Assembly: GCA_030272585.1 (NCBI GenBank)
Contig: BSYQ01000012.1
Location: forward strand, 806,001 to 870,000
Length of the DNA: 64,000 bases
Source of the DNA: Bryopsis sp. KO-2023
Lineage: Eukaryota > Chlorophyta > Ulvophyceae > Bryopsidales > Bryopsidaceae
Direction of reading: 5' to 3'
In this document: piece after piece, positions 35-63,636 of the stretch
Layout: every line of letters begins with the position of its first letter
How positions within the stretch are numbered: position 1 is the first letter of the stretch
The notes under the pieces: generated by a model
Seen by the model: the letters and a program-made list of their open reading frames with translations, nothing else
Told to the model about the DNA's origin: nothing
Database searches by the model: none
Program-made: the position numbers and the translations under genes

Positions 35-4191
<4,157 letters not shown>

Positions 4192-24652: not shown

Positions 24653-27600
24653 TTAAACAATCGGCCCTGTATCTTGTCTTCTGGTTTCGTCTGCGAAAGG
24701 ATTGCCCTCGACTGGAGCTGTTGAAAACACACAGAACAAAAAAAAAAGGAAAACAGCCGATCAGAAAAAGAAATAGCAGTGCTGTGCTGGTGTTCGTTTT
24801 CCCGAAAGATGATGTTATTTCTTGAGAAAAAAATGAAAGAGATAGCGTTCATTATTTGTCCGACCGAACTTTTCCCACCATCCCCACAAAATTGTGCATT
24901 GAAAAAAAAAAAAAAAAGATCAGGCACACCACCAGAAGCACTCCCCCAAAAAAAGACATATCTACACGAAAACAAAAAAAAGTTGCTGGATCGAAAACAA
25001 ACACCTGTCAATTCTTCTTGGGGGGTTTCCATTCCGTTTGCCCTCAGTACATTCAGCAACGCTTCGAACCTCATGTCTGAGTTTGCTTTCAATCCAGCGT
25101 AGAGATTTTTCATCTCCTTCCTGCAGAATTATTCAAACGAAAAAAAAAAAAAAAAAAACACTCTGAGAAAACTTACCGTAACTTTAAAATCCCAAGACCG
25201 ATTTTTTCTTTTCCATTCCTGGATTTTTTTTAAGAAAAAAAAATTGTTTCCCTGTAGCCCTCCTACTACTAATAAGAAAGTGTGCAACAGATACACAGAG
25301 TCCCTGATTCTATTCTTAGCTGGACTCAGAACCCTTACAAATGTGCTACACAAGTTAACCTGCTCAAAAGCCAGCAAAACAGATCCCTAGTTTTCCAAAC
25401 AAATTTTTAGAGAAGTTCGCAACGTTTTTCCAGTACCCTGTTTTTTTAATTATGTGTAAAAACATCCCCCCCCATCACTCCCCTCAATCCTGCCTTAAAA
25501 CAGAATACCTCAAAATGATGTTCTGCTCAAGAATTCTTCCTTTCCATTCTCCTTGCCTTTCTTTGATGTCTTCTTGTTTGGGCTCCAAAATGTGCAAATA
25601 TTTTCCAATAGTCGCACTTTTTTTTTTTTTAAAACCAACCGAGAAAGAACGAAAATACTGTCAGGTTCTATATCGTCATTTTTTTTGTTTTTTCCAGAAT
25701 CCACATCCACAGAATTTTGCCAGAAACTGAATCAACAGAAGGCATCCTTTTTTTTCCCGTTCGGACTCTGTGGTGTCAAATTGCTCAAAAAACTTGCTTG
25801 CAAGTTTTTCTTTTCTGATTTGGTTTAGGATTAGTTCCAAGGGTTGAGCGGAAAAAAAAAAAAACTTCTATAGCAAAAAAAAGCAACGAAAATTGTGAAA
25901 ACGTTGTGTAAGACAAAAAAAAGGAAGAATGTATAGATTCGATATGCATACCTGCACTTTCGTCTTTTTTTCTGAGACATCATGGACTCCATGTCGTTCA
26001 TCACTTCAGATCGTGCCTTCGGAAAAAAAAAAAGGAAACCACTTAGCGCAAACAAAAACCTTTATTAAAATGCACAAAGTTTTTTTCTGGTCGAAGTAAA
26101 GCATCACGGTCCACCCTCGGGCATGCGAGATATGAGTCTTAAAGAACGAAAAAACGTACTGCCCAAAAAAACTCGATTTCTAGTTTTCTTTCCAGTTTTC
26201 AGATTTATTATTTTTTTTTTGGGGGGGGGGGCGGCGTGAGATCAAAACCACTGCTCCATATCACATTTTTATCTGTTAATAAGACCTGGACTAAATACAT
26301 ATATATTTATATATACCAAAACACCAAAAGCCAAAAATAAAGCCATTTCCTCCATCCCTCCATCCCTCCACCCACCAACAGAAACTGATTCTCCTCAGTG
26401 TTTTTGACCCTGTCAAAGCTATCGCCCATGACAGCGATCAGCAGATTGAGAAGCACGATCATGATGGCCAGCAAATAAATGACAAACATGATGGTCCCAA
26501 TCACTCTGAGGCTGCCGTCCAGAGCGCTCAGCGAATCCAATTGTGTTTCGCCCAGCATCATTCCAAAGGCCGTCAGCATGGAGAGTCCGACGCTCCCATA
26601 CAGCGATTGAGCCTCTGTGTAGCAGCACACAGGGAAAAAAAAATGACGAGGGCAGGGGGTCGAGCACATGGAGATAGAAAAAAATTGGGGGGTGAAAACT
26701 GGCTGATTTCTTACTGATTTTGTGCTATTTCTGTATGTTTTTTTTAGTGAGGTATTGAGCGTTTGAAACTTGACTGGTTTGTTGGTTATCTCAATCCTAG
26801 CTTGATTATTCATGGAGGCCCCTTTTTTGATCGATTTCCGCTTATTCCCAAAACAGTTTAACAGAAAGGGAAAAAAAAAGCCAGAACCTAGCAAGGCTAA
26901 GGAATCCATAAACCTTATATCAAACACTTGTTTTCAATTTCTGATTCGAAAGAGAAATCCCCCCTCCTCCTCCCCAGACCCCTTTTTCCTCGGCCTCACC
27001 TTGCTTCGATTCCTCACACTGCTCGATCTTGACCTGAGTAGTCACTCTGACTTGGATGTCCTCATCGGTGGCATTCGCCACCGAAACATTCCCCCCCTCC
27101 ATGGCCGTCAGATTCCTCCCCATCAGCACTGTTTTCTCCAGGATACAAGGCCGATTGAGATTCACACGGAACAGCACGTAGAAAGCAATCGCAAACCCGA
27201 TCATCAGCCCGAAAGTCAGGATCAGAAACACGATAATGGCTTTAAGGATCTCTTTGATCATGATCACCACCGGGGCGGTCGTCCGGAAGCCTTGCGCATA
27301 CCGGAGCATTTTCCAGGACAGCAGAATCGACTCGGTGCTGACCATCACTGTCAGACTGTTCTGCTCATCCACCTCGGTGGATCCAGCCGCCACAAAAAAG
27401 TGATAGGGAGCAATCACCCCCACCAGAAGTCCATAGGAAGCCAGATCGATCCAGTTCCAGTGAGATTTCGCCCAGCGGAGCAGCCCTCGAGCACCGGATT
27501 CCCGCCGGAAAGCATTCACTTTGGTGAACTCCCTGACTAGGCCCAGCACCCCCAGGATCCAGCAAATCAACAGCGAAAGGGCTGCGTACATGTTGGTTTT

Positions 27601-30600
27601 CCTTCTCGGGGCATTGGCATCCAGAAACTGGTTGAACGAAATCAGCTTCCACAAGCCACCCAGGGAAATTGAGTAGGTCGTGAACAGCAGCCATAACAGG
27701 GCAAAGTGCCAGAGCTCCTCCACCAGGAGCCTCCGTCCATAAATCTTCCAGTGTGCATGAATCACAGCTTTGACGATCGTGGTGGAATAGATCTGACTTC
27801 CTCCATATCTGATCGACAGCTGTTTCATGAAACCACGCTTGTCCAGCGACACTATGTCCGGATAAGGCACCACCCTAGGGATGGCTGAGATCATTTTCGC
27901 CCCATCGGTGGCTGAATCCAGCATGTGGGAGTCTGCCCTGTGTGAAGCCTTCAGATTGTCCATCCACATGCGCTGGAGGCCGGATTGAGTGTAAATCATA
28001 GTGTCGCTGGTGGTTACTTTGAATTCTCGATGCCGAAAGGTGCGTTCGGGGACCTTGATGGTGGGGAGGGTGTGGAAGAGGGTGTCGTCAGACAGGACGG
28101 AGCGATATGCTGATGGGAAAACTTTGGACAGGGGGATCAGGGATGCGGAGTAGACTTTCATCATGGCTGGATGGGAGGTCAAGCCTTTGGACAGGTGTTT
28201 CAGAATGATCTGCCGACGAGAAAGCCACAGGTTAGACATTCGATGCTTAACAGGAGGAAAATGCAGCGCCCTTGAAACGAAGCGAAATGGAACAGGAGAA
28301 CAAAACGAATTGCTGAAAAGGAAAAGTAAAGATGGGAAATGGGGGTTTGGGGGTCTCTAACTAAGACTCATCTCTGGTGTAAAAAGCTTCTTTTTCATGA
28401 TTGATCCTTGGACCGATTTTCTGCTCACCTCAGCGCACTCTGGAATTCTCTTGGACACCGACAAATCCAATGCTGTGGTGATTTTCCCTTCAGTGCAGCT
28501 GTCCGGCTCCACCCCCTTTTCCTTGATCAAGTCCATTGGTACCCGATGCTTCATTGCCCAAGACACCATCCAATCCAGCAGCTCATAGTTCCTGTCCAAA
28601 ATCGCATGCATGGGAATGGTCAACCCCTCGTGGTCAGGGTAATTCAGCAAACCAGCCCCATGCAAATCCAGCTGGCGAGAGATCTCCTTTTCGTCAGTCG
28701 TAGCCTCCGCAAGGTCCAGATTATGCCAATCGTTAAGACACCCTTCCGTTGCATGGACATTCCACACAAAAAGCCCCCCATTCTCCCCAAGGCAAGCCAC
28801 TCGACGGCCATCATGGGAAATCGAAATGAATTTGCTGGGTTGGAGGCCTCGACCCTTGAGGATTTTTGGTTCCGAAACTCCATTGACGTCCAGAATCATC
28901 AGCTGATCGGTGGCTCCATCCTGACATTGAGTGCGTTTCAGCAAGTATTGCCACGTATCATCCGAATAGAACTCTCCGACCTCAGGGAATCGTTCCTTCT
29001 TCTCGTCTGACTCATCTTTTGGATCAGTTTCCCCCTTTGATGTGGAAGTAAATACCGCCTCAAGATCATAACCGCTTGCTGTGGTTGGTGGCGTCTTGAC
29101 ATCAATTTCCTCCGGAACTGGCTCCTGGCCTTCATCGATTGTGCTGACTTGCTGCGGGATGGAGGGATACGGCTCCACCTTGAAAACAGCTTCGTTTGCC
29201 ACTTCAGGAGGACTTTCCCCACCTGCACTAGCCGACCCATTCACAAAAGGTATCTCCTTGAGCAGGACCTCATTCCCATTACTCGTTTCCAGCAGGCCAT
29301 CGGATAATAACGGCAAGGATGGGTGCTCCGCACCCCTCTTCCTGATATCCACCAGCCTGTCGACCACCACCCAATTTGAATTCTCAGCCATGCACACGTT
29401 CGCTGGCACCCTAGCCAAATCCTTGAGATCGGCCTCGGTGGTTTCTGGATTGCAGGTCAGGAACCCCTCCCCTTGCTCCGATATTCTCCAATCGCTCCTC
29501 ACCCCCACCACCGCAAACGACCCCATCATCGATATGTTGTGAGGAAACGACACCACCCCAGAAGGCCCCATCCACAACTTATACTCCAACCTTTGGATTT
29601 TCCTGCGATTCACCAAATCCCACACATTGACCTCCTCCTCGCTGGGCATCAATACACCCCTCGTGCCATCCGAGGAAAACTGGCACCTTTTCAGCCCCCC
29701 ACCTTGTCGCCTCGACACGATCACCTGTTTATGAGGGTCAATCCAGACCAGCATCCCGGTGTCCTCGCAAACCACCACCATTTCCTGACTGTTGGGGTCT
29801 CTGGAAAAGGTGATGCCCCATGCTGGATAGTACTTGCTGCGCAGTTTGGCGATCCGTCTGGAGTGAGTAACCACACATTCGGCGGAGCCCTCCAATTCCC
29901 AGAGCAACACGGACAGATCCCCCATGCAAGTCACGATGCGCTTCCCATGGGGCGAAATCCCAAACACACAAAACCTGTACCGGTTTGAGGAGGTATCCTT
30001 GCCCGAGACCTGATCGTCCAAAGCAGCGGTCTCCTCATTCATTGAATGCTCCAAATACAGCGAGTCTTTGTCCAGAATCCGCCTCGTTTGTTGGGCTTTT
30101 TTTGCCCTCAATAGAGCCTTGATCTCTTTGGCCGAGCATTCCCCTGTCGCACCTGGCAGCAAGGTGTATTTCAACCCAGTCCCCAAATCCCAGACGCTCA
30201 TCACCAACGCATAGGATCGACAAATGCCCAGCAGCTCCCCATCCATCGAAAACCTGCACGTAACCTGCCCGTTGTCGATCAGTTTGTCTGAGCTCTTCAA
30301 AACTGCAGTACTGATGCCTTCCAGCCCCCCTGCCGAGTTCCCCAAAGGCCTGGGATTCCAAACCAGCATGTTTTCCTCGCTGCACAGCAAAAATCGATCC
30401 CCAGCCCACGAGAAATGCAAATCCATGTCTAAGGTATCGCTGTTGGGGTTTTTCGACAGCTCCGCCGGCACACTGAAACCCAAAACTTGAATGCCGGACC
30501 TCGCATCCCAGATATAGCCTTTCTGGGCATCGGCCGAGTAGACACCCAACCACTGCCCGTTCCCGGAGCTAGCGATCAAACCCAATCCGTACGATCTTTG

Positions 30601-33253
30601 CACTCTCACCCATTGATTGTCCCAAGCATCCGTGTCGACCAGCCTGGTTTCGGACCGCCCTATGTCTGTCGACAACCTTTGCAGCAGAGTTTGAGAATGC
30701 ACATCCCACAGCAGAATCTCCAGCTGATCTTTGACCACGCAGGTTGCAATCCCCAGACAGCCATGCAAATCAGGCAAGAAGGATGCCCAGTAAACGTTCC
30801 CACCCCCCGGGTCCTTCAGTGTCGATGGGTCCGGGGCTTGGAAGAGATGGCTGCCCTCAATTTCTGGCATTAAGCAGGTCGAACTCTGATTGAAATTCCT
30901 GACCTTCCACAGGTAACACCCCCCTTGTCGCATCGACGAGGCCTTGGTTTCGATTTCCCAGGTGGCCACGTAGTCATCCATCGGAGACCAGCACCCCACT
31001 ATGCCCTCCAGCAAATAACCCACATCCGAGGCTTCCTCGAAATTGGGGAAAACCGTGATAAACCCGGACGGCCTCTCGTTGAATCCCACCAGCAACCCTT
31101 TGTTCGAATTCGAAAACGCCCCCCATGCGAACGCGAAATCAGGGGCATTGTTTCTGGAAGCTACTTGCATCACTCTGGAAGCCAGCATCTCCTGGTGCCC
31201 CCTCATCGGACCGCTCCGGCTGGTGTCCAAAACAAACAGAGAGCACCCTTGTCGGAAATTCAGCCCGGCAGGTGCACCCCGCAAGGATTCATCCTCTGCT
31301 AAATTGTTGGGGTGGGTTTCGTCGTCGCTTGGGTTGCCTTGGGAATCCCCCCCCATGTCGGTGAAATAAGTGACTGGGTACATCAGGGAGGTGCCATCTC
31401 GGCAGAAAACGGGCCATCTGACTTTGGGTCCTAGCATTTCTTCGTGCTTCCAGTTCACGGAGCAATCGCCATACACCACTCGAGTGTTGGTGTCCCACAT
31501 TGCGACATTTCCATGGAAATCGCAAGAAAGGACCATCTGTTTTGTTTTTTTTTGTTTTTTTGTTTTGTTAATTAAATTTAATTTAGGTTTTTTTTTGGGA
31601 GGGGGGGGGGAGGAGAGGGAGGGGACACACACACACACACACACGTGTAGAAAAAGAAATAGTTTCAGTGCTGAGAAAGTGTGGGGGGAAATGGGTGGTG
31701 AACATATTCTCGGAAATCCTCAAAAATTATCAGTGCAGAGAAATTATTATCTTGTGTCAGTGTGTTTCCAAAACAACAAGTAAACGAAAGTCAACCAGAG
31801 CAAAGAAAAACTAAAGCACCACGATTTGCTTTAGAATAACTGAGAAAATTGGGAGATCCAACCACATTTCAATTTTTTTTAGCCATTTCGACATGTATAT
31901 ATATGGAAAAGATCAATTCCAGGCCAAAAAAATGTCGTTTTTAGAGTGTGTGGACCGTGGTGCAAATCTTACCGTGGTGCTGTCAGCATAAAAAGCAATG
32001 TCAGCAACAGGTGACAGCTTGTGTATTTTCTTGTGCTCATGGAGCATGGTTCCGTGATCGGCGCTCCACACTACGAGAGATCCATTGTCGTGCCCAGATG
32101 CAATTCTCGACCTAAAAATAGAAACAAAAACAAACAAGGGTCTTGATTAAATGAACCGCCCACTGTTTTGTTGAAGAGGTGTTGTGTTTGCTAAGCGGGG
32201 CATTTTTGTTACAAAGAGAGAATATTCTGGAAGGAAACCCCATGTGTTTTATGTACAGAACCGATATTAGGGATCTCCAAAAAGAAAAAAAGAACGAGTC
32301 TTTTATGATATCGTTTTATTTAGCTCTCAACTACTGCAAGTTTTGCTCCCAAATATTTTATATCGAGGAAACCTCTAATCCATCATGTCCCAGGCAAGGT
32401 AAAAAAGCATTGTATCTACAATTACACTACAAATTTAGGACACAGGTTGACTGGCTTTACCCATCGGCTGAAAACGAGCAACACGTGATGGCATTCTTGT
32501 TTTCGTAGAAAGTGATTTTCGACACGATCTCTTTTCTGCTGGCCGTGGGTTTGCTTCCGGAAGATTTCCTGTGTTCGATTCCTTCGCTTTTATCGGGATC
32601 CAGGACAAACACCGGAACTCCGCTGATCACGTGAAAATCATCAAAAAATGACAGTTGAGTGCCGCCCAACGGAGGATTTTCTGCATGCATCAAATTGAAG
32701 GGATGTTGTTGCTTTTTTCCTTTCCGCTTGATTCATCCCTTTTCTTTTTTGTACATTCCAGCAAATACTGTTCACCATTCAAGGCAGCCGATGCTAGTAC
32801 TCTATTTATTATTATTTTATTTTATTGATTTATTTTTTATTTTTTTGACTGGGTTCAGGGAGCAGGAAGTAAAATCCAACCTACAATATTTCCCACGAAA
32901 ATAAAGACTATTTGAAAATGCCACATTTGCAGGTAAATAAATGAACCTTTTTTGTAATAAATAAATGACTAAAACCTATTATTTTAAAAGACGTAAACAA
33001 AACAAACACATTTGAAGGATTATTTATATGAACATGAAAATGTAAATTACATTTAATTTACATAAACTTTTCCCCACTCACCTCCTTGGCCATGACTAAG
33101 CGCCGTCGCGTTCGCCCTCGTTTCCACCTGTGCATGTTCGTTCAAAACGTACCACCGAACTAACCTCCTCACTTGATACGCCAACGCCGTAACGCAATCC
33201 ACCCAATGAAGGCGAAAGCCTTCGATCACTTCATTGATCGGGTCCAATATCAT
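24653..33253 (-). CDS. WD40-repeat/TRP-like cation channel fusion, 10 exons, 1793 residues
   Basis: Exons: 33082-33253, 32461-32680, 31973-32111, 28429-31536, 27000-28209, 26376-26614, 25952-26016, 25509-25556, 25005-25120, 24653-24717. All phases close. Residues 1 to about 1120 carry many WD40 blades (e.g. SGHDNGSLVVWS, SCDFHGNVAMWDTN, GVLMPSEEEVNVWDLV). A helical ankyrin-like stretch follows (about 1140-1225). Then six membrane segments: about 1376-1396, 1420-1440, 1464-1487, 1500-1516, 1534-1561 and 1655-1682. A pore loop sits before the last (GSVGLSMLTAFGMMLGE), and the TRP-type S6 end reads LLNLLIAVMGDSFDRVK. The C-terminal tail is charged and may form a coiled coil (KRRKC, EWKGRILEQNIIL). 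By analogy with TRPV/TRPA it should be a plasma-membrane or organelle cation channel with a WD40 sensor or scaffold. The start codon follows an in-frame stop. The 48-nt exon at 25509-25556 is placed by phase. Confidence 0.92.
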
Positions 33254-34175
33254 CTTGAAACTCCCAGCAACGCCACAGAGCGTCTCGTTGTTGGATTCCC
33301 GACAGAATCAAATTTCTGTCGATCGAAGAGCGCAGCTTTTCTTCGATCGGATTGCCTTGGCGGGATGGGGGCGTGCGTGAAGGACACCAACGAAACGTGG
33401 TAGATTTCCAGCGTGGGTCCGTCGTTTCACTTTTTTTTGCTACGAGGCGGAATTCCTGCTGTGGCGGCGCGCGCTAAGCGAGCAACCCATGAATTTCGAC
33501 ACAAAGCCGCGAACCAGCTCTCCTATCTCGACCTGCCGCCTTGCGGAACGTCGAAGAGAAACAGGAAAAGGCCAGCTGGGTTTTCTTTTTGGGGTTGGGT
33601 TTGGGCTTGACGTGATTGATGTGCCATTTGGGATGCAACGTCTCGTCTCGCTCATGGTCGCCGCTTTTCAGCAGACATTCCCACACATTTTTGAATGGTT
33701 TTTTCTTTCTCTTTTTTTTTGGTTCCAATACGAAAGCGGCATCTCCTTCACAATGCAAGTATTTGTTTTGTTTTTTTATTGCTGGTGGCATGATATGATT
33801 GTGTTGTAAATTACAACTTGTAATCATCAGTGTTGGCGTGGTCACAGAAGTTTGAACTGTGGGCTCCAGTCATAACTGCCTTCTGTGTGTATAACCTTTG
33901 ATTTGATGTAATAACTGCCTTTTTCAACTAAAGATTGGGGGAATTCATTTATCACAGCAACAGTTCATAAATTACATTTGACACTAAGGAGATTCTTGAA
34001 TAGACTCCCCTAACTGGATGAAAACGGACAAGAGAGTTGGGGTGCCAAGATATACTACCCAAACGCCTCTTTTTCAACTTTATGCATGATCATCACTCCA
34101 GTTCAAAATCAAGTCACTAGGCAGCTTAGCCTAGGCTAACTTTATTAAATTAGGGCTTAAGCCTACAAACACACC
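33254..34175. other. Intergenic; the duplicated block begins at about 33955
   Basis: The first 700 bp hold the channel gene's presumed promoter and no supported gene. From about 33955 the sequence (AACAGTTCAT.AATTACATTTG and on) matches 41440 and onward. Confidence 0.55.
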
Positions 34176-35285
34176 TTACAAAGTACTGTCACTTTGGAAC
34201 ACATCTCCACCACTCGCCGCCGCTGACGCTGACGCCAACGCCAACGCCACCTCCGAGGAGATACATGGCGAAATATGTGCTGACAGACCCAGGGAGACTT
34301 CAGCAGACTTCTTCTTCAAGCCTTACAAAGAAAAAAAAAATGATTCAACAAACAGCAAGTGTATGATGGTGAGCAACCACCGTTACTAAACCGTTCAGAT
34401 CTTTGAGAAACCGAGAACAAAATCATCAGAAACTCACCTTGGGCTTCAGCACCAGCAGCCCCTTCTCTTGAACCTACACCAGAAACACACAATAAAGTTC
34501 AACACAAACTCACCTTGGGCTTCAGCACCAGCAGCCCCTTCTCTTGAACCTACACCAGAAACACACAATAAAGTTCAACACAAACTTACCTTGGGCTTCA
34601 GCACCAGCAGCCCCTTCTCTTGAACCTACACCAGAAACACACAATAAAGTTCAACACAAACTCACCTTGGGCTTCAGCACCAGCAGCTCCCTTCTCTTGA
34701 ACCTACACCAGAAACACACAATAAAGTTCAACACAAACTTACCTTGGGCTTCAGCACCAGCAGCTCCCTTCTCTTGAACCTACACCAGAAACACACAATA
34801 AAGTTCAACACAAACTCACCTTGGGCTTCAGCACCAGCAGCTCCCTTCTCTTGAACCTACACCAGAAACACACAATAAAGTTCAACACAAACTCACCTTG
34901 GGCTTCAGCACCAGCAGCTCCCTTCTCTTGAACCTACACCAGAAACACACAATAAAGTTCAACACAAACTCACCTTGGGCTTCAGCACCAGCAGCTCCCT
35001 TCTCTTGAACCTACACCAGAAACACACAATAAAGTTCAACACAAACTCACCTTGGGCTTCAGCTCCAGGCGTAATGACTTTCCCGTTGTTAAAGAATGGG
35101 CCTAGATGGTTCTCTTGGAAAGGAATAGACATTTTGCTGGTTGAAGATAAAACAATTTTTGGATATATCGCACATCCATGCATGGTTAATTTATACAAAG
35201 ACAAGAAAAAAAGGATCTGAAAAACGAAAACCAAAAAGACAAGAAAGAGACTTCCAACAGGAATTGCAGAGCTGAGGAAAGTCAT
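34176..35285 (-). CDS. Small membrane/secreted protein gene with micro-exon array (copy A)
   Basis: Family not recognised. Supported exons: 35051-35285 (78 codons plus one base) and the terminal exon 34176-34321. The start ATG at 35283-35285 opens a long hydrophobic N-terminus (MTFLSSAIPVGSLFLVFLVF). Exon 1 ends PGAEAQ with a GTGAGT donor. Between the two exons lie eight near-identical micro-exons (34438-35010). The three nearest the 3' end are 36 nt and each add GSREGAAGAEAQ in frame. The five nearest exon 1 are 37 nt and shift the frame into a stop. The terminal exon encodes KKKSAEVSLGL, then an Ala/Ser/Gly-rich end and TAA. Exon 1 to the 36-nt units to the terminal exon stays in phase, giving about 127 residues plus 12 per unit. 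An upstream exon is possible because a good acceptor (TTTTTCAG) lies inside exon 1. Confidence 0.6.
34438..35050 (-). repeat. Tandem array of eight 76-77-bp exon-intron units
   Basis: Exon cores: 34438-34473, 34514-34549, 34590-34625 (36 nt each); 34666-34702, 34743-34779, 34820-34856, 34897-34933, 34974-35010 (37 nt each). Read on the minus strand, each core is bounded by CTGGTGTAG before it and GTGAGT or GTAAGT after it. The roughly 40-bp mini-introns include TTGAACTTTATTGTGTGTTTC. The 37-nt form has one extra base (GGGAGCTGC against GGGGCTGC). Confidence 0.92.
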
Positions 35286-36875
35286 TGCAGCCACCTTTCA
35301 GAAAAAAGCTATTACAAAATTTACAGCATATTTGCTTGGTCTCCAGATTACACCATCAGCTTTTTCATTCCCTTCTTCGACAGAAATCTCACTGACAGAA
35401 AAAATGTACAACAACATAATAACAAATAAACTTCCATAATGAATACGGTGATGTCCTCCAAGGGACTGGATTTGTCTTTTTTTTTCAAGGGCACCACGAA
35501 CACAAGCAAACACAACTTGAAGGATATAACAATCTTTTGGCTTGAATGGGTGTATGGTGTGGATGCTGTTTTTGTTTTAAGATTTTCGGTTTGGAGTTTG
35601 AATCGTGGGTGGGGAAAGCTCGTGAAACAAAAACTTGTGGCCGATGGAATTGAGTCCTCCTTGTTCGAAGTAACAAATTTGACAGCAAACGCCTGGTGGT
35701 GAAAGAAGAGGAGTTGAACCTCTGGGAAGGAACATCAATAACAACCAAACTTGTGTGTAAGACGCATAGATAATGCTTGAGAGGTAAATCATCTCAAAAA
35801 AACAAACTTCTCGACTAAACGAATACCTCAGCACCCAAAACGAAACCACACCAGCCAAAACCAAACAACGACCAAGCCACAACCAAATAACGACCAAACC
35901 AATAACCGCTTGAAACAAATGAATGCTTGGGAAACAAAACGACGACCAGAAACGCATTGCACTTGGATTGCTGAAAGAAGAAGAACAATGGAACCTTTGC
36001 TTGAATGAAACTCGAAACGAAGTGTTTGACGGGCCGCGAACGATTCGCGTAATCGATTTTGCCTGGGAATGCGGAACAAGCTTGTAAAAACGTGCGTTTG
36101 AATATTTTTAAAGGATTTCAGGAACGATAATTGATTCTCCTTCAAGGGGAACGTGGAGACGCGGAGAGAAGTTCTCTCCACGTTGAGACTATAAGACAGC
36201 AGAGGAATGCGCACAGGGATGCGGCCGGACTTTCGACGTTGCGTGGATTTTGCGAAGACAAATGGAGCTTTTTGCTATCCGATCGACGGTTGCGGTCGCT
36301 GACGTAAAGTGATTAATGTCCTCTGAAAATCACCCCGCAAATTTACAGCATTTAAATGATTAAAAGCGAAACTTCAATTCTGTCTTCTGAGGAAAAATAA
36401 GAAGTTCCAAGTTGCTGATGAAAAAATCACCAAGCAAGTGTAATAAATTTCACTTGAATTGTGAGGAGACCATAAAGAAAACGTTAGCGAGATATAACAT
36501 GGACCTGGCCTGTACGATCAATTTAACCTTCGTTGATTACTCTCTAATATCGAACACACTGGATTTTCTCCATCACAATGTGAGTAAGTTGATTTGATTT
36601 GATTTGTCCAAAATTTATGGAGGCTGATCTGATTGATTCATGGAGGTAGTCTGTGCGATTTGATGCCGTTTTGCAAAAGTTCTTTCCAGCATCTTCGGGG
36701 GAAGGATGGGCAATTTGTTGATTATGGTGATGGGGTTGAGGACAATCACAATCCCCACCAGTCCAAAAACATCTCTGGTATTGGATCAGGTGCTAAGTAA
36801 CTGGGTGAGGATGGAGACCCCCTTCTCAACCGATTCTCAACCAGGAAAACCGAGGGGAATGAACAGACCCCCTTG
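35286..36875. other. 5' region of copy A gene; no resolved exons
   Basis: Much of it is conserved with block B (42460-44200), including 35600-35740, whose minus strand stays open in both copies, and the hairpin at 36150-36184. I could not join these to the 34176-35285 gene with consistent phases, so they may be upstream exons, promoter or decayed sequence. Confidence 0.4.
36150..36184. repeat. Hairpin conserved in both duplicated blocks (A copy)
   Basis: AACGTGGAGA pairs with TCTCCACGTT, with an inner GAGA/TCTC pairing around AAGT. The same sequence occurs at 43722-43756 in block B, in the same place relative to the gene. Confidence 0.75.
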
Positions 36876-36955
36876 ATGAGCGACATTAGGCGCGTCAGCG
36901 ATTATCCCTGCTCAAGGAAGGCAGGCGCTCACCGTTTGCAGCGGCCCACGTTTTT
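36876..36955 (+). pseudogene. Orphan BTB-gene first-exon-like sequence
   Basis: The ATG at 36876 begins MSDIRRVSDYPCSRKAGAHR, which resembles exon 1 of the BTB gene at 56082 (shared KAGAH). No BTB domain follows. The same stretch recurs without its ATG near 45826-45890 and 38555-38625. Confidence 0.4.
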
Positions 36956-37085
36956 GTTTTTTTACACTCAAAGGGAGCTTTTAATTCCTCCCTTGAGCTT
37001 GATGGTGGGAGCTTTTTCTTGCCACCTCGTTTTTGTGACGTACCCTTTCCACTTTATACTGTTTTCTGGTGACTTCGGAGTTCTA

Positions 37086-38742: not shown

Positions 38743-40230
38743 GCGCTTGTGCGCGACTTGGAAGGTTCCCTGCAGAGATTGGGACTGTGCTTCAACGACG
38801 CCAAACTCAGCGACGTTGTTGTTGAGACCGAAGATGGGCGCGAGTTCTACTGCCACAAGATTGTCCTTGCAGCCGCCAGCCCAGTTTTCGCAGATTTGCT
38901 GTATGAGACCTCTAGTGCCTTGGAGACGCTGAAGCAGAGAAAAGCAAAGGAAGGGAAGGTGTGCATGAGAGAGATGGACCCTGGAGCGGTGGAGTGGCTT
39001 CTCTCCGCCTTGTACACAGGAGAAGGGGTCTTGACAGATGCAATGGTTGTACCTGTGATGATGGCAGCGAGTATGTACCAAGTGGAGTGGGTGGTCGCCG
39101 CTTGCAGGCTCTTTTTGAGAGACAACATCAAAGAAGACACTTGTTGCGCTGTGTTCAACCACCTGATTGGCGTGGCGAACCAAGGACTGCAAGGACAGTT
39201 TGCGAAATTTATTCATGACAATATTGCATCAATCAGCGACAAAAAAGGTTTTTTGGAGTTGAGCGTCGATGCGATCCAGCACCTCCTTGCGACGTCTCCC
39301 ACCACTCCCGAATTTTGCTTGGCACTGATGAGATGGTTGCTTCACGACCTCGAGGCACGACGAGGGATAGCCGGTTCTTTGATCAGCGACCTCCACATGG
39401 ACGACCTAAAAAACTTCGCTGCATCAGAAATGATAAAAGGCTTGGAAAGTGTTCAATGTGATATTCAACAGGTACTTCGTGCACAGGCTGTGGAGTTGCG
39501 ATCCGTTGAAGCAGCTGTTTCCTTTTGCTATTCTCCTTCCTTTCAGAAATGGCATGATTGGAGAGTACCTCGGTCGGGATGGTACCACATTGTCGCTGTT
39601 GGTGCAAAAGCTGCAGATAACCCTTGTGGGAGGGGGCGGGGTGGACGGGGTGCAATAATCGGAGCTTCGTTCGAGCTTCCAGCCGGAGGAATCGTGAAAA
39701 TACTCACGGGGAGCATGTCTACGGATTCGAACCGAGGTAGTGGTGGTGCAGGAGGCACATTTGTCGTTAGACCCGACGGCTCGTTGCTGATAGCCGCCGG
39801 TGGAGGGGGTGGATGCAGCTTAAGACGGGGTCAGGATGGTACTGATGCAAACGTTGAGAACGATGGGAACGCGTCGCCAGGAGGTAGTCGTGGTGGGACG
39901 CAAGGGCTCAGCGTACCACATGGAGGGTGTGGATGGAAGGATGGACTTGAGAGTCTTGCGACACCACTGAGAACCGGAGATGTGAGGGGATTCGGAGGGG
40001 GGTCAAATAGTGGTGGGGGTGGGGGGTATTCTGGTGGAGGAAAAGGTGCGATAGATGGTTATCACTGGGATGGGGGTGGGGGTGGGGGTAGTTACGTTTG
40101 TTGTGGGGCGACGAATGTTTGGAAGGCAGTGGGTAGCAAAGGTCATGGTCGTATTTCCATCTTCAATTGCAAGGAAAGGCCTGCATCCTCTGCCTTTGAG
40201 AAATTTCTGGTTCACCTTTTCGAAGAGTGA
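38743..40230 (+). CDS. BTB-BACK-glycine-rich protein 1 (5' end unresolved)
   Basis: Main exon of 495 codons to TGA. It opens after an acceptor (GCGCAG) with ALVRDLEGSL, so a short upstream exon is expected. The region homologous to exon 1 of the 56082 gene (38560-38665) has no ATG, so the 5' end may be decayed. Domains: BTB about residues 4-120 (SDVVVETEDGREFYCHK, AAASPVF, GAVEWLLSALYTG); BACK-like helices about 120-240; linker; then a Gly-rich domain about 260-480 (SGWYHIVAVGAKA, GGAGGTFVVRPDGSLLIAAG, GGGGGGSYV) like the glycine-rich region of ALK/LTK receptors. BTB-BACK proteins often act as Cullin-3 adaptors, so the Gly-rich part may bind targets (inference). Paralogue of the genes at 54400 and 63637. 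Confidence 0.82.
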   Translation, partial: ALVRDLEGSLQRLGLCFNDAKLSDVVVETEDGREFYCHKIVLAAASPVFADLLYETSSALETLKQRKAKEGKVCMREMDPGAVEWLLSALYTGEGVLTDAMVVPVMMAASMYQVEWVVAACRLFLRDNIKEDTCCAVFNHLIGVANQGLQGQFAKFIHDNIASISDKKGFLELSVDAIQHLLATSPTTPEFCLALMRWLLHDLEARRGIAGSLISDLHMDDLKNFAASEMIKGLESVQCDIQQVLRAQAVELRSVEAAVSFCYSPSFQKWHDWRVPRSGWYHIVAVGAKAADNPCGRGRGGRGAIIGASFELPAGGIVKILTGSMSTDSNRGSGGAGGTFVVRPDGSLLIAAGGGGGCSLRRGQDGTDANVENDGNASPGGSRGGTQGLSVPHGGCGWKDGLESLATPLRTGDVRGFGGGSNSGGGGGYSGGGKGAIDGYHWDGGGGGGSYVCCGATNVWKAVGSKGHGRISIFNCKERPASSAFEKFLVHLFEE

Positions 40231-41435
40231 GGAAGAATTTGTCATTTCTTGAAAGACAAAAAGGCCATACACACATGCTGCCACTGTGTCATTGATGGCC
40301 TGAGATCAGTAGCTTTTCTGGCATCTTTTCTGATAAAAAGTTCAGTGTTCGTTTTTCTTGTGTTACAAAAACCGTGGGCTCTTAAATTTTGTCCGGCTGG
40401 AATTTGCATGATCGATAATGCTTTTCTTTTCTCTCTTACAATGTATTTCGAGATTTGTTTCTTCGTTTGTTTGTATTATCCGAAAATAAAGACACATCAG
40501 TAAATCCATATTTGACAACGGGGGAACTGAGGACAGAATGCTGATTCTGGCAGTTTGCACTCATCTTTCACTGCTCTTCATTTCAAATCTCTTCGTACCA
40601 GTGTGAAGGGGTGTGGGTGGAGGAGGAAGAAACCAATTCTGACAATGCTGCAGAACTACTTGACAGACACTCTGCATGATGCAAAGCGCAACACAATCGA
40701 TCAACACCCCTCGGCAATGAAAAAAAACGACTACTGCTTTCAATATTTTTTGCAAAGAGCAAAGACCCCCCGTAATTCTGAAACCAATTCCCTTCAAATA
40801 AATAACAATGGTGCTTTTTTCCTTTTCTTCCTTTATATTTTACCTCTCTCAAAGCTCGCTCAGAAATCTCCAGCGAAAAAAACAACTCACCAAAGCATGT
40901 TACAGCTGGGTTTTAAAGTTGATCAGTTTTTTTGTGTTGTTGCCCCACCCAGTTTTTTTTCACCCTAATACCTCTCAGCCACGTTGAACTCTATTCTTCT
41001 TGACCCACACGAGCGGCCATATTTTTTTCTTGAGCTGTGATCCACCTCAAAAAAAACCTAAGCAATAATAATAACAGAAGCGGAAAGAAAGATTCGAGGG
41101 ATGAGGGAAGCCTGTAAAATTTTTTATATATATTGTCGAATCAAGGAACGAACATCTTTTAACATGAGCTGAAGCTGACGCATCTGAAACACCCAGAATG
41201 GGTGTGCACGAATACCAAAAAGGCAAGAAAGTGTAAACCACTTCTTTTTCTTTTTTTTTTCAAAATAAATCGAACATCGCAATCTGCATGGTGGGTTGAA
41301 CGACCGACTCCTAAAAGCCTTGTCCCAAGAAACCCATTTGAATGAAAAAAGACCCCTTGAAACAATGTGGGGTGCAGGTCAGTCATTTTGGATGCGGGAC
41401 CTTTCCAACCAGGCTGTGAGACTTCACAGATTCAC
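40231..41435. other. Intergenic downstream of BTB gene 1
   Basis: The first 270 bp are a likely 3' UTR (AATAAAGAC near 40486). The rest holds homopolymer-rich sequence and no supported gene. Confidence 0.5.
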
Positions 41436-41703
41436 AGCAACAGTTCATGAATTACATTTGACACTGAGAAGATTCTTGAATAAGACTCCCCCAACAAGAT
41501 AAAAACCCAAACACTAGATCCACATGGGACAAGAGAGTTGGGGTGCCAAGATACACAACCCAAACGCCTCTATTTCAACTTTATGCTTGATCATCAGTCC
41601 AGTTCAAAATCCAGTAACCAGGCAGCTTAGCCTGGAGCAATATACAGACACAGGAATAAATTTATAAATTTATAAAATTAAGGCTTAAGCCTACAAACAC
41701 ACC

Positions 41704-42456
41704 TTATAAAGTACTTACACTTTCGAACACATCTCCACCACCCGCCGCCGCCGCCGACACCAACGCCACCTCCGAGGAGATACATGGCGAGGTATGTGCT
41801 GACAAGCCCAGGGGTGATATTTGAAGGCTGGTCTTCCTCGCAAGGGAGAAGTCGATCGACTTCAGCAGAGTGCTTCTACAAGCCTTCAAAAAAAAAAAAA
41901 AACTGATTCAACAAACAGCAAGTCTATTATGCTGAGCAAACACCTTGACTAAACCGTTCGAATCTTTCAAAGACCGAAAACCAAATCAGCACAAACTCAC
42001 CTTGGTTTTTAGCAGCAGCAGCCCCTTCTCTCCTACCTACACCAGAAACACACAACAAACTTCAGCACCAGTTCAAAGACAGAACCAAATCATCAGAAAC
42101 TCACCTTGATCCTCAGCTCCATCTTCTTTTCTTCCAGCCTGCAACAAAACCACACAACACAACATCAGCACCAACTAAGACAAAACCAAACCCAGAACCA
42201 CTCACCTTAATTCTCAGCTCCAGCCGTAATGTTTTTCCCGCTGTTCAAGAATGGGCCCACATGATTCTCTTGAAAAGGAATAGACATTTTGTTGGTTGAA
42301 GATAAATTTTCTTCCGTATGTATCGTACCAGCATGCATGTTTTTGTACGAAGACAAGAAAAGAATTCCTTCGAAGGATCTGAAAAACGAAAACCAAAAAG
42401 GCAAGAAAGAGACATCCAACAGGAATTGCATAGAGAGGGAAAGCTATTGCAACCAC
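41704..42456 (-). pseudogene. Copy B of the small membrane/secreted protein gene, probably decayed
   Basis: The terminal exon homologue (41704-41889) encodes LGLSAHTSPCISSEVALVSAAAAGGGDVF, ending TAA. The exon 1 homologue (about 42210-42456) encodes KMSIPFQENHVGPF. The ATG used by copy A is missing, a roughly 10-bp length difference shifts the hydrophobic part, and the codon matching CAA in PGAEAQ is TAA. Only two micro-exon-like units remain: about 42001-42036, and about 42107-42140 of unusual length. A shorter alternative product from an inner ATG cannot be excluded. Confidence 0.55.
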
Positions 42457-44387
42457 CTTTCAGAAAAAAGCTTTTGTAAAATCAACAGCAGATTTGCTCG
42501 GTCTCCAGATTACACAATCAGCTTTTTTATTCCCCTCCTTTAAACCCCACTGACAGAACGATGTGCAATAACATAATAAAAAATAAAATGAACACTGTGA
42601 TGTCCTCGAAGGGACTGGATTTGTCCTTTTTTTAAGGGCACCACAAACACAAGCAAACACAACTTGAACGATATAACAGTCTTTTGCCTCGGAATGGGTG
42701 TATGGTGTGGATGCTGTTTTTGTTTTAAGATTTTCGGTTTGGAGTTCGAATCGTGGGTGGGGAAAGCTCGTGAAACAAAAACTTGTGGCCGATGGAATTG
42801 AGTCCTCCTTGTTCGAAGTAACAAAGTTTACAGCAAACGCCTGGTGGTGAAAGAAGAGGAGTTGATCCTCTGGGAAGGAACATCAATAACAACCAAACTT
42901 GTGTAACACGCACAGAAAATGCTTGAGAGGTAAATTATCTTCAAAAAAACAAACTTTTCGAATCAACGAATACCTCAGCACCCAAAACAAAACCACACCA
43001 GCCAAAACCACACAACGACCAAACCACAACCGAACCACAGCCTGGCATGAATGTGTGGAATGCATATTTGTGATCATGTTGAAGTGTTGTTTTCATTTCA
43101 TAAGGAACAGAATTTAGTCAGGCAAGATGTGACTTGCAAGGATATTTGTGGCTGCAGAGACATTTTAAAGAATCAGTTTGTTAGAACCAAGAATGTTTGT
43201 ATGGACACGGTGGCTATTTAGTTACCGGAGCAAAAATAAAATCAGTTGAATTCTTCGAATCTTGATTTTTTAAGCAACCGTTTTTTTTTTTTCCTCTGAC
43301 GATTGGCGATGGAGTGTTGATTGAAACTGTGTGTACTACTCGGTGTGCCAGTTGAATGCCGTTATGATCTAAATCTGCATCGTGGCGACGATTCCATTAC
43401 TGGCGGCGCGATTTGCATTCGCCGTTGTATCCGAAAGACCGCCATCATAAGCCCCCCCCCCCTCAAAAGTCGGAAGAAATCGAGGTCGTGGTGGTGAAAG
43501 ATGATGAAGCTTGGAGTATCGGAGTCATTCAACAGCTTGAAACAAATGAATGCTTGGGAAACGAAACGACGACCAGAAACGCATTGTACTTGGATTGTTG
43601 AAAGAAGAAGAACAATGAAACCTTTACTTGAGTGAACCACGACGGAACAAGCTTGTGAAAATCGCGCGTTTCAATATTTTTAAAGGATTTCAGGAACGAT
43701 AATTGATTCTCCTTCAAGGGGAACGTGGAGACGCGGAGAGAAGTTCTCTCCACGTTGAGACTATAAGACAGCAGAGGAATGCGCACAGGGATGCGGCCGG
43801 ACTTTCGACGTTGCGTGGATTTTGCGGTGACAAATGGAGCTTTTTGCTATCCGATCGACGGTTGCGGTCGCTGACGTAATGTGACTAATGTCCTCTGAGA
43901 ATCATCTCGCAAATTTACAGCCTTTAAATGATTAAAAGCGAAACTTCAATTCTGTCTTCTAAGGAAAAAGAAGAAGTTCCAAGTTGCTGGTGAAAAAATC
44001 ACCAAGCGCGTGTAATAAATTTCACTTGGATTGTGAGAAGGCCGAAAAGAACACGTTACCGAGGTGGAACATGGACCTGGCCTATACGACCAAATCAACC
44101 TTAGTTGATTAATTCCTAATATTGAACCCACGTGGGTTCAGTGCACTGGATTTTCTCTATCACAATGTGAGTAGGTTGATTTTATTTTATTTTTCCACAA
44201 TGTATGCAGGTTGATCTGATTTAAATCATGTAGTCCATGCGATTTGATGCTCGTTTGCAAGACTTTCTTTCTGGGATCTTCGGGGGAAGGAGTTGTGATT
44301 TCTTGATTATGGTGGTGGGGTTGAGGACAATCATTTGGACACTTATAATCCACCCCAGTCCAAAAACAATACTGGTAAATACCAGTA
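42457..44387. other. 5' region of copy B; no resolved exons
   Basis: Parallels 35286-36800. It includes the conserved hairpin 43722-43756. A perfect palindrome (AATACTGGTA, AA, TACCAGTATT) ends at the insertion point near 44389. Confidence 0.4.
43722..43756. repeat. Hairpin conserved in both duplicated blocks (B copy)
   Basis: Identical in its arms to 36150-36184. It has been kept while surrounding sequence diverged. Confidence 0.75.
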
Positions 44388-45690
44388 TTGTCCGAGTTAC
44401 CAGGTTACTAGCGCTAGTTCTGAACTACTAGCGCTAGTAACAATGTTCAACCCCCTCCACTTTCTCTTTCAAACTTCATATTTTTTCCCAAAATTTTGCA
44501 GAGACCTTTTTTATGACTTGAATGTATTGGGAAATAAAAATGAGATCAAAATTCAAACATTAGATCCTAATGCACGCCTCCTATCTCCTTATTACGATTT
44601 TGTGTCGCAGAAACAGCGTTTGAAGTCTCTTCCATATTTTTCTTTCCACGACGCTTGGAATGTAGAGTTTGTACCTCATTTTTAGATCGTGGTTTCAAAA
44701 GACCAAAACACATAATGTGACAAAAAATCAAGTAAAAGAAAAGTTTTTCAAGGCTCCTAGTATCTCACTCATGTGGAGGTAATTTTAGCTTGCTGCAGAA
44801 TTGTCTTGTCTACAACATTATGGCCGGTAGCTGGAAAACTAGATTTTTCGAGCTCATGAGATGCATTGGAGATAAATCCACACCTATCAAGGATTCTCAA
44901 GAAAAAAATCCGGCCTCATTTGACGCAATTATCCTCTCGTAATGCTAATCCAAAGTTGATGCGTTTCTCACAGTTCATTTTATCCGAATCATGGGTGTGA
45001 CCTTATGTACGACCTAATTGTACAAAAACCATAAGATATCAACAAAAAACTTCGTAAAATGAAATTTTTATTAAAAAAGCATCTTAATCTCCAATTCGTT
45101 TCATATTTTGGAGGGGCTCTAACAAGTATAGGCTAGAAATCGTGGGCACATAATAAGCATTCATTCCCACCAAAATATATCACTTTGGAGGTAATATATC
45201 CCTCTCGAAACATTACACCGAAGATTATGAAGATTAGTCAACATTTATGTGTCCACATGTAGAATAAATTGTTCTAGCGGCAAGAAACGGCAAGAAACTG
45301 TCAAAATGCATCAAGTTTGCATTGACCTAATGGGACGCTTTTTACATCAAACGAGGCTGGCTTTTTTTTCTTAGAACCCTCAATAGGTGTGGATTTATCT
45401 CCAATGCATCCCATGAGGTCGAAAAATCTAGTTTTTCAGCTACCGGCCATAATGTTGTAGACAAGACAATTCAGCAGAAAAAGCTAAAAATGCACTAACA
45501 TTGGTGAGAAGCTAAGAGCCTCTCAACTATTTCTTTCCACTTCAGATTTTTTTATGCGATCTATAATTGTCTTGTAAACAATTGTTCAGGAAATGAGATC
45601 TAAAATCTTTTTGCCAATAACCGTGGAATGATGAACGTGGAAGCAATTTTCAGTACTAGCGCTAGTAGCGAAAACTGGTAACTCGGACAG
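44388..45690. mobile_element. 1.3-kb DNA element with terminal inverted repeats, TA target site
   Basis: The ends read TTGTCCGAGTTACCAG (left) and the complement of CTGTCCGAGTTACCAG (right), with TA on each side. Palindromic ACTAGCGCTAGT motifs lie just inside both ends. Block A (about 36770-36800) shows the unfilled site. A second inverted pair of about 150 bp lies inside (about 44785-44935 and 45340-45500). No transposase frame seen, so it is non-autonomous. Confidence 0.8.
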
Positions 45691-45825
45691 TATATTGGAT
45701 CGGGTGATGGGTAACTGGGTGAGGATGGGGACTCCCTTCTCAACCGATTGACGACCTGGAAAACCGACGAGAATGCCCAGACCCCATCAAGGGGGACATT
45801 TTTATTATTTGAATCATTTGGACAT

Positions 45826-45890
45826 GAGGCGCGTCAGCGATCAGTCCTGGTCAAGGAAGGCAGGCGCATACCGTTTGCAGCTGCCTACGT
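45826..45890 (+). pseudogene. Second orphan BTB-first-exon-like sequence
   Basis: GCGCGTCAGCGATCAGTCC... with AAGGCAGGCGCATACC matches 36885-36950 and the 5' flank of BTB gene 1. The ATG is absent here. It has no BTB domain downstream. Confidence 0.35.
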
Positions 45891-46495
45891 TTTTGTTTTT
45901 TACACTCAAAGGGAGCTTTTAATTTCTCCCTTGAGCTTGATGGTGGGAGCTTTTTGTTGCAAACTCGTTTTTGTGACGTACCCTTTTCTCTTTACACTGT
46001 TTTCTGGTGACTTCGGAATTCTACTGGAGATTGAATTACCAAGAAATATGGTCTCAAAGTTGCACTTTGACTGATTGCAAAGACTCCAACCAGCCAAAGG
46101 AATTTCTTCCCGCACCAAGCTGTCACCAGCCACATCACCAACCTCCATCCTTTTTCTCACACTAGCCCTCGATTCCATTAACACACCAAGTGTGGAGCGG
46201 CGGATTCTGGGAGGTCGCGTGTAAATTCATGCAGATGCATGGTGCCTGGCATGAACTTGACTATTGGTGCCAAAGCTGTATCATATGGTCTGGAGAATGG
46301 CATGATTTCGGTTCTGGTATTCGCAGCACAGCGGGTTCGAAAACATGGTCGGGCAAGAACTTCTGCTGGAACTACGCTGACGCCACCGCAGCATTTTAAA
46401 CGCTGAACTGGTCGGTGTCGCCTTGCTGTGCCACGGATCACGATATTGAAGAAAATGAATAAACATACAAAAGATCCCTTGCACCATATAAAAGT

Positions 46496-52917: not shown

Positions 52918-54399
52918 GAAGGAATTGGATGTACAGATTTGAGAGAATAATGATGATTGGTGGTTTTATTATGTGACAGTATTATTCCATTTATGGAGAT
53001 AGTTTTGTTTATATATATATTTGGGATTTGGGGTGGTTTGGCTTGAAAAGTTGATTGGATGTTTTATATGCTGAGGATAGGAGTCATTTTTCTTGATATT
53101 ATCACCAAAAAAAAAGGAAAAAAACTGTACAGCAGAAATCAGAGAGAGAGAGAGAGAGTGCTTCTTTTATTCTCATATATCTGCCCCTATTATGAATATG
53201 CTTCTTTTTTTTCATACTCTTTTTGTTTAGTGACTGAGAGTTTTTGATCCAAAAAAAAAAGACCTAGAGGTGAAACCCCCCAAAACAAATCAATAAAAAT
53301 GACTCGAAAAAGGGGAAAATGATTTCACTCTGGTTGAGCGAAAAGTAGCTTTGGAAATATGAGAGATGAGCAGAGTCTGTCTGGACAAAAAACACAAAAA
53401 AAGGTTTTGCAGGGGGATTATTGGTCTTCATATGTGTTTCCTAAATAAGAGTAGAGTCGAGTGTAATCAAAGGAAGTTGGAAAAGCGGGTGGGCAAAAAG
53501 GAGGAAAGCAAAATAAATATGCTTTGATAAGAGTTTTTTTTGCTCTTTGTTTTTGAGGGTGGTTCATGAGTGAAATTTGAGAGAGAGAGAGAGAGGAAAT
53601 AAGTAGGAAAAAAAAGGCAAACTCAGAGGGGGTTGATTCCACAACAACGCTTTTAAGAGAGTGGGGGGCAAGGGGGAGGGGGGGTCATGGATCTTTCATG
53701 AATTCCAGGGTGAGCTGAGAGGAATGCAATGGATTTGATGCACGGATCGATGGAAATTAAACAGTGGAGACTTGACCATTCCATACGGATGAGGTGGTTG
53801 CTGTTGTGCATTTGTAATTTTTGGTTTGGTTTGGTGTTGTGCATTTGTTCGATACTCTTGAAACTCATTCGATATCGGCGTGGCATGATGGTGTTGATCA
53901 ATTATATTGCATGATTTGGTTTCCCTATCTGGCGGCTGGAAATGGTTGCAAAAGATGGGAGAGAAAAATTTCCTCTATTTCCCCCACAGGTGCAAAGTGA
54001 TATAAAAATGCAGTGGAAGTCACTTTACGGTGGAGGGCCCTTCCTGAAGGAGGGCCCTCCTTCAGAATTATTATAATTTTCTGTTTTAAACTGTGTTCGA
54101 TCCTACCCCACCCCAGAATGTGGATCCACTTGTCGGCCTTGATACACTTTTCAATAATCAATTTGAAGCTGTAGCTAATTTATTTTGACCAAATAGACCC
54201 CACTCTACCAGCAAAGAAGAAAGAAACGAAAAGAAAATCGGACGATTTTCTATCCAGATACAAACACAGAATCACAATCTGGATCAGAAGGCGCCTCAGA
54301 TTCAAAAAAATTCTTAAGAAACCAAGGAAAAGGTAACCACAGATGCATATTTTCTTAAAGAAAGACTCTTTATTATCCTTCCGGGAAAAAACCAACCCA
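52918..54399. other. Intergenic built from duplicated flanks
   Basis: About 53020-53600 matches 57310-57670. About 53620-54399 matches 62945-63636 and continues into the 3' end of the BTB genes. GGAGGGCCC inverted copies lie near 54033-54062. No supported gene. Confidence 0.6.
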
Positions 54400-62901: not shown

Positions 62902-62944
62902 CTTGATTATTTGAATTGCCCAGGCCTGGGGAGAAGGAAAAGAA

Positions 62945-63636
62945 AAGACAAACTTAGAGGGGGTTGATTCCACGACAACACTTGGAAGGGGGGGTCGTGG
63001 ATCTTTGATGAATTCCAGGGTGAGCTAAGAGGAATGCAATGGATTTGATGAGCGGATAGGTGGAAATTAAACAGTGGAGACCTGACCATTCCATATGGAT
63101 GGGGTTGTGCTTCTTGTGCACTTGTTGCTCTGTCGATATTCTTGAAACCCATACATTTTCAGCATGGAAAGATGATGTTGGTCAACTATGTCGCATATGC
63201 ATGTTTTTTTATTTTTCTATCTGCTGGCTTCAAAAATGTTGAAAAGGATGGGGGGGAAAAAGTGATATAAAAATGAAGTGGAAGTGGAGGGCGAATTGCC
63301 CTTCCTGAAGGAGCTGTTCACAATTATAATTTTCTGTTTTAAACTGAGTTCAATCCTACCCCACCCCAGAATGTGGATCCACAATTGTCTGCCTCGATAC
63401 TCTTTAAAAAAATCAATTTGAAGCTTTAGCTAATTTATTTTGACAAAACCATCAAAGGAAAAAAAAAACGAAAAGAAAATCGGACGTTTCCTATCCAGAA
63501 ACAAACACAGAACCACTCTCTAGATCAGAAGGCGCCTCAGATCCAAAAAAAATCTTAAGAAACCAAGGAAAAGGTAACCACAGATGTTTTTTTTAAGAAA
63601 GACTCTTTATTATCCTTCCGCGAAAAAAACAACCCA
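62945..63636. repeat. Duplicate of the BTB gene 2 downstream flank
   Basis: Matches about 53620-54399 (shared GAATTCCAGGGTGAGCT, GGAATGCAATGGATTTGATG, GAAATTAAACAGTGGAGAC), continuous with the BTB gene 3 fragment. Confidence 0.85.

Follow-up and report, generated by a model that had tools for sequence, protein, structure and literature searches.

Eight near-identical units of 76/77 bp stand in tandem on the minus strand at 34438-35050 of the window (the whole 64-kb stretch of DNA analysed here), and each of them combines a predicted strong 5' splice site, a predicted weaker 3' splice site and a core of 36 or 37 nt. Our preferred reading, which we hold with about as much doubt as conviction, is that this array arose recently, as an internal tandem repeat (minisatellite) of an exon-intron unit that is itself older, within a spliced gene that is present in two copies, and that its donors compete for one downstream acceptor. 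It is unlikely that the array is protein-coding.

The array was delimited in two ways. TRF reports a tandem repeat at 34423-35068 (period 77, 8.4 copies, 98% matches) and pattern extraction recovers the eight units, and together they confirm the starting observation of an earlier sequence-only reading of this DNA, namely eight 76-77-bp units with ordered splice-site-like ends. In transcript order, five cores of 37 nt are followed by three of 36 nt, and an extra A is what separates the longer form from the shorter. There are eight spacers of 40 nt, one behind the first exon considered here (E1) and one behind each of cores 1-7; they start with GTGAGT, except behind cores 4 and 6, where they start with GTAAGT, are otherwise identical, and all end in CTGGTGTAG. 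AGGT is found at every unit boundary, as TAG/GTTC at 8/8 cores and as AAG/GTGAGT or AAG/GTAAGT behind the cores (the slash marks the predicted junction). The string AAGGTGAGT occurs 11 times in the 64-kb window, 0.51 being expected from shuffles, with 7 copies at E1 and the array, 3 in the duplicate described below and 1 elsewhere; because copies within the array are not independent, the meaningful count is a handful of diverged copies. Additionally, E1 and the core have CTGG-GCTGAAGCCCAAGGTGAGTTT in common, with one mismatch. On the plus strand, AATAAA occurs eight times in 34438-35050, once per 40-nt spacer, so that any transcript of that strand would run through a series of poly(A)-signal-like motifs. 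The parts of the candidate gene, in transcript order, are as follows.

35217..35851, minus strand: candidate 5' intron of 635 nt, donor CTG/GTGTGG, acceptor TTTTCAG/ATCC (prediction only)
35051..35132, minus strand: predicted exon E1, from the ATG of MSIPFQENH... to the donor
34322..35050, minus strand: E1 donor to E3 acceptor, 729 nt, readable as a single intron containing the array
34974..35010, minus strand: core 1, 37 nt, frame-breaking (stop)
34897..34933, minus strand: core 2, 37 nt
34820..34856, minus strand: core 3, 37 nt
34743..34779, minus strand: core 4, 37 nt, followed by GTAAGT
34666..34702, minus strand: core 5, 37 nt
34590..34625, minus strand: core 6, 36 nt, in frame, followed by GTAAGT
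34514..34549, minus strand: core 7, 36 nt, in frame
34438..34473, minus strand: core 8, 36 nt, in frame, its donor facing a 116-nt spacer before E3
34176..34321, minus strand: predicted last exon E3 (GLKKKSAEV...STL-stop), with a strong acceptor
34141..34146, minus strand: AATAAA downstream of the E3 stop, presumably poly(A)-signal-like

Comparison of the window with itself reveals a segmental duplication in which 33952-37085 (copy A) pairs with 41432-46023 (copy B) in the same orientation, with segment identities of 74.8 to 81.4% and insertions in B. Copy B holds an E1 homologue, two units with cores of 34 nt and 36 nt, and an E3 homologue.

41432..46023, minus strand: segmental duplicate B, counterpart of 33952-37085
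42105..42138, minus strand: unit B2, 34-nt core, between spacers of 67 and 68 nt
42001..42036, minus strand: unit B3, 36-nt core without the extra A, then a 117-nt spacer to the last exon

In alignment with the B spacer, the spacer of the A array lacks an internal stretch, and splice-site-like ends, donors and acceptors alike, are retained in B. The proposal of the sequence-only reading that the repeat units are exon-like is thus upheld in so far as the ordered splice-like ends are kept in the diverged copy and unit number differs, 8 in A vs 2 in B. Since B already has exon-intron units, such a unit seems to have existed before A expanded it eightfold. As the extra A is missing from the 36-nt core of B, the simplest reading of these two loci is that 36 nt was the earlier core length and that the frame-breaking 37-nt form arose later and then spread. 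In B, the shared frame of the first exon is closed by a stop immediately ahead of the E1 donor, as seen in 4/4 joins tried, and the frame of entry into E3 differs between A and B because of a 43-base difference.

Two other parts of the duplication stand out. A block at 36101..36340 on the minus strand is almost identical between A and B within a segment that is 81% identical overall; it includes a run of 154 bases identical between the copies (36101-36254) and the palindrome CGTGGAGAGAACTTCTCTCCGCG, and 36101-36249 folds better than its shuffles (z -3.16, 0/200). It could be a promoter element, a structured RNA or a product of gene conversion, and we take the palindrome to be promoter-like. 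A second stretch of about 98% identity lies at 35540-35740, and its B copy carries, on the plus strand, GGAGTTCGAATCG, which we take to be T-loop-like; Rfam gives no match there.

What could be translated across the array? We enumerated the 256 combinations of included and skipped cores, and 8 of them are open to the E3 stop, all being subsets of cores 6, 7 and 8, whose 36 nt hold E1 and E3 in one frame. Every combination that includes any of cores 1-5 meets a premature stop; a 37-nt core placed after E1, for example, reads GSREGSCWC-stop. The earlier statement that 36-nt cores add GSREGAAGAEAQ in frame is therefore true of 3/8 cores and fails for the five cores of 37 nt, which bring a stop. 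Among the eight open combinations, five (none, 6, 7, 8, and 6+8) need no intron shorter than 116 nt, and if 40-nt introns are not removable, a product could take in no more than two in-frame repeats, those of cores 6 and 8. We also considered core frame 0 (VQEKGLLVLKPK), which is slightly better kept in B than the frame chosen by the sequence-only reading (3 synonymous and 3 non-synonymous codons, P 0.12); it was rejected, as a stop interrupts the corresponding frame of E1 in A and in B.

Are the predicted sites good enough to be used, and could 40 nt make an intron? Our reference consists of 16 introns of 93-1784 nt assigned in nearby genes of the window: five in dehydroquinate synthase, five in an aspartyl protease, four in a PP2C phosphatase, one in an ion-channel gene and one in an ankyrin gene. 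Joined translation, which is open, served as a check on all five junctions in dehydroquinate synthase; the closest solved structure to this enzyme is chain 3zok_A, which we take to be a plant enzyme. For the other 11 introns the boundaries were set by eye, with conserved protein sequence as the guide, in genes with Pfam-matching pieces, so single-base errors are possible among them. PEP2 was absent from a first set of 10 introns and was added to the second. The 40-nt spacers are less than half as long as the shortest of the 16 assigned introns, and the distances from the last core to E3 (116 nt) and from E1 to E3 (729 nt) lie inside the assigned range. A minimum intron length is generally assumed (PMC5435141), and introns of 43 and 49 nt are validated in human genes, their splicing being termed enigmatic (PMC8363638). 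In other words, 40 nt is not impossible, given the human cases, and single 40-nt introns here would be unusual.

Site models were built from the 16 assigned introns, with the assigned sites scored leave-one-out. Donors of both array forms score above 16/16 assigned donors. Acceptors are more varied: the acceptor of the candidate 5' intron scores above 16/16 assigned acceptors and that of E3 above 15/16, and the array acceptor scores above 5/16, with 24.6% of AGs in the window being as good. One assigned acceptor (ATGGTGTGGTGTGTGTATAG) is likewise TG-rich. Acceptor ranks are model-dependent, since they change with a shorter model (6 bases, 10 introns), under which 12.6% of window AGs equal the E3 acceptor and the B2 acceptor falls in the top 0.6%. 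A first result from 10 introns, which placed the array acceptors below all training sites, was softened by leave-one-out scoring and 16 introns. The donor 9-mer is invariant at 9/9 columns vs 17/33 overall among five copies compared (A E1, A core, B E1, B2 and B3; P 0.0006), a figure to be read with the 33 columns having been hand-picked and with fewer than five copies being independent, as a single base separates A E1 from A core. From these comparisons the donors look maintained, and the array's internal acceptors seem usable, if weak. Dual-specific splice sites were considered as well and set aside on site scores: read in swapped roles, the acceptor boundary scores 0.63 as a donor and the donor boundary -5.49 as an acceptor, both below 16/16 assigned sites.

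The history and behavior that we infer for the locus run as follows. A small spliced gene on the minus strand, present as two segmental duplicates, would descend from an ancestor with serial units of a spacer and a core of about 36 nt, each ending AAG/GTGAGT. The CTGG-GCTGAAGCCCAAGGTGAGTTT ends common to E1 and the core lend themselves to slippage or unequal crossing-over, and by one of these routes the repeated ends would have allowed one unit to become eight in A, with B keeping two. GTAAGT behind cores 4 and 6 would fit an expansion step of two units. The pre-mRNA would then present nine strong donors, those of E1 and the eight cores, vs a single strong acceptor before E3, and most or all of the array would be removed as one intron or as a few nested ones. 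Occasionally a single core may be included with its neighbors skipped, and inclusion of any of cores 1-5 would lead to an early stop. The array may thereby alter splicing.

Coding constraint was evaluated by comparing A with B. From an earlier in-frame ATG at 35183, E1 shows 3 synonymous and 16 non-synonymous codon changes, and randomly placed changes would give 4.2 and 18.3, respectively (P 0.41). No significant synonymous excess between A and B emerges in any of three frames for the cores, for E1 read from MSIP or for the final 111 aligned bases of E3 (P 0.12 to 0.80); these pieces are short, so weak constraint could still act on them. E1 is identical to its B homologue at 68/82 positions, and its coding score is near zero. 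E3 has the top coding score among the pieces tested and ranks in the top 1.3% when set against 9315 open windows of 48 codons. Over its last 111 aligned bases it shares 89% identity with B, where the counterpart is open and also scores as coding, so a real C-terminus is possible. This last part of E3 has the same stop in both copies and a nine-base in-frame gap. Pfam has no match at E 1 to the joined in-frame product, E3 or the ORF at 35577-35957, and none at E 0.01 to a GTG-started ORF at 34959-35294. As far as these sequence comparisons go, the gene is probably either non-coding or free of remaining constraint on its protein.

The same observations bear on a different reading, which we judge unlikely yet worth serious attention: both copies are dead or were never transcribed, and the splice-like ends are leftovers carried along by a minisatellite. 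The locus may indeed be silent. Such decay would account for the stop in the first exon of B, the lack of significant codon constraint, the five units with a frame-breaking core and the failure of Pfam to place the joined product or E3 in a family at E 1 or better. It fits poorly with the donor 9-mer, which is retained across A and B copies, with the 5' and E3 acceptors, which are strong and retained in both, with a 5' donor identical in the two copies, and with the nearly identical block upstream.

We find improbable the model of the sequence-only reading, in which the units are used as micro-exons and copy number together with alternative splicing varies the number of 12-residue repeats in a protein. 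The donors are very strong and cores 6-8 do connect E1 with E3, as this model would have it, but 5/8 cores break the frame, and since most do, a repeat protein is unlikely. The peptide is also not conserved (SREGAAGAEAQ in A vs RREGAAAAKNQ in B, with 0 synonymous and 4 non-synonymous codon changes), purifying selection is not significant, and the 40-nt introns it requires are outside the local range of 93-1784 nt. The hydrophobic N-terminus proposed for this protein fares badly as well: its start ATG at 35285 is ATA in B, its stretch contains a strong acceptor with first exon base 35216, and it scores as non-coding, with 91% of open windows of that length scoring at least as high. From frames and codons, the repeat-protein reading is largely contradicted by the former and unsupported by the latter.

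Could the stops themselves be the point? Cores 1-5 might be included on purpose so as to trigger mRNA decay, their number setting output, and we grant this only a slim chance: the premature stop in every combination with any of these cores and the unusually strong donors speak for such a rheostat, and against it, there is no significantly conserved coding product to regulate. Slimmer still is the chance of copy-number-tuned splicing, in which every minisatellite unit would supply a full poison micro-exon together with a 40-nt intron, and the number of units in an individual would set its yield of productive mRNA; if it were true, each added unit would add a strong donor and a frame-breaking exon. 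That the array is a repeat of small structured, snoRNA-like non-coding RNAs rather than exons is very improbable: tandem units of about 77 nt in a gene of no clear codon constraint would suit it, but Rfam has no match in 33800-36300 at E 5, and neither single units (z -0.35, 0.01) nor the array (741 nt, z -0.22, 20 shuffles) fold better than shuffles. A piece of B gives a fold z of -0.22, a lax Rfam search of B returned two chance-level matches (E 4.2 and 4.8), and at the gathering threshold the whole window has one Rfam match only, a tRNA.

How does an array of this kind, read as a repeated exon-intron unit, compare with known systems? Among the matches listed in the open-licence literature, we noticed no case in which the repeated unit is this small, with a core of 36 nt and a spacer of 40 nt; aphid bicycle genes (PMC9168663) and human NBPF (PMC9313022) figure among those listed. 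The exact core pattern has 0 occurrences in viral contigs and 0 in prokaryote genomes, and a 44-base piece of the upstream block has 0 in viral contigs; as the collections searched are of viruses and prokaryotes, these absences say little. A paper on tandemly repeated exons is named within the reference list of a Schistosoma micro-exon gene (MEG) paper. Internal tandem repeats in human segmental-duplication genes, with units of 9-39 and 62-228 bp arising by slippage or unequal crossing-over, change exons and introns, in a few cases out of frame (PMC2812944). Here, too, the array is in one member of a duplicate pair and unit number differs, but the unit is a whole candidate micro-exon with a 40-nt spacer (cf. 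PMC2812944). The polyubiquitin gene UBC has tandem units with AGGT splice sites, and splicing gives a variable unit number (PMC10809524); our array shares AGGT at unit boundaries and the possibility of variable unit number by splicing. In UBC the repeat length, 228 nt, is divisible by three, and a single site acts as donor and as acceptor (PMC10809524), whereas the units here are 76/77 bp, five cores are 37 nt, and donor and acceptor are separate. The Schistosoma MEGs have introns of 0.1-5 kb, exons mostly in multiples of three and a conserved signal peptide (PMC10526429). The likeness is in serial, very short (candidate) exons; the eight candidate cores are 36/37 nt and 3/8 are multiples of three, vs MEG exons of 6-81 bp, and the spacers are 40 nt in A and 67/68 nt in B, unlike the MEG introns (PMC10526429). 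Finally, an intron-exon stretch is duplicated in a potato gene, multiplying splice sites, and in fission-yeast cases several AGGT-containing copies are spanned by one intron (PMC4974935). Here a duplicated intron-exon stretch multiplies splice sites in like manner, but in contrast to intron gain by AGGT duplication, the exon-intron unit is already in B and pre-dates the expansion (cf. PMC4974935).

The window seems rich in duplications. Two intronless BTB-BACK ORFs with a glycine-rich C-terminal part lie at 38749-40230 and 54400-55881, and a third copy of the glycine-rich part, at 63648-64000, is cut by the window end. Further duplications of about 80-82% identity pair 53602-54751 with 62932-64000 and 53307-53588 with 57359-57647. 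A minisatellite at 11658-12002 (period 46-47), inside the 1784-nt PP2C intron, offers an ordinary intronic repeat for comparison, and a 48-base palindromic inverted repeat at 3814-3861 (91.7% match to its own reverse complement) sits in the first assigned intron of the aspartyl protease gene. Within 26307-31644, a 1095-aa ORF with weak beta-propeller matches below Pfam cut-offs stands directly upstream of an Ion_trans ORF on the same strand; the two are perhaps one fused channel gene.

The locus is of interest as a small natural example of an exon and an intron that seem to be multiplied jointly, at the pace of a minisatellite, and its diverged sister copy displays an older state. If it is silent, it shows how easily splice-site-like repeats with partly open frames may be misread as repeat-protein genes. 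If it is spliced, one could test cleanly by what rule the spliceosome selects one of nine near-identical donors, down to what length introns are removable in this lineage, and in what way a frame-breaking exon variant spreads through an array.
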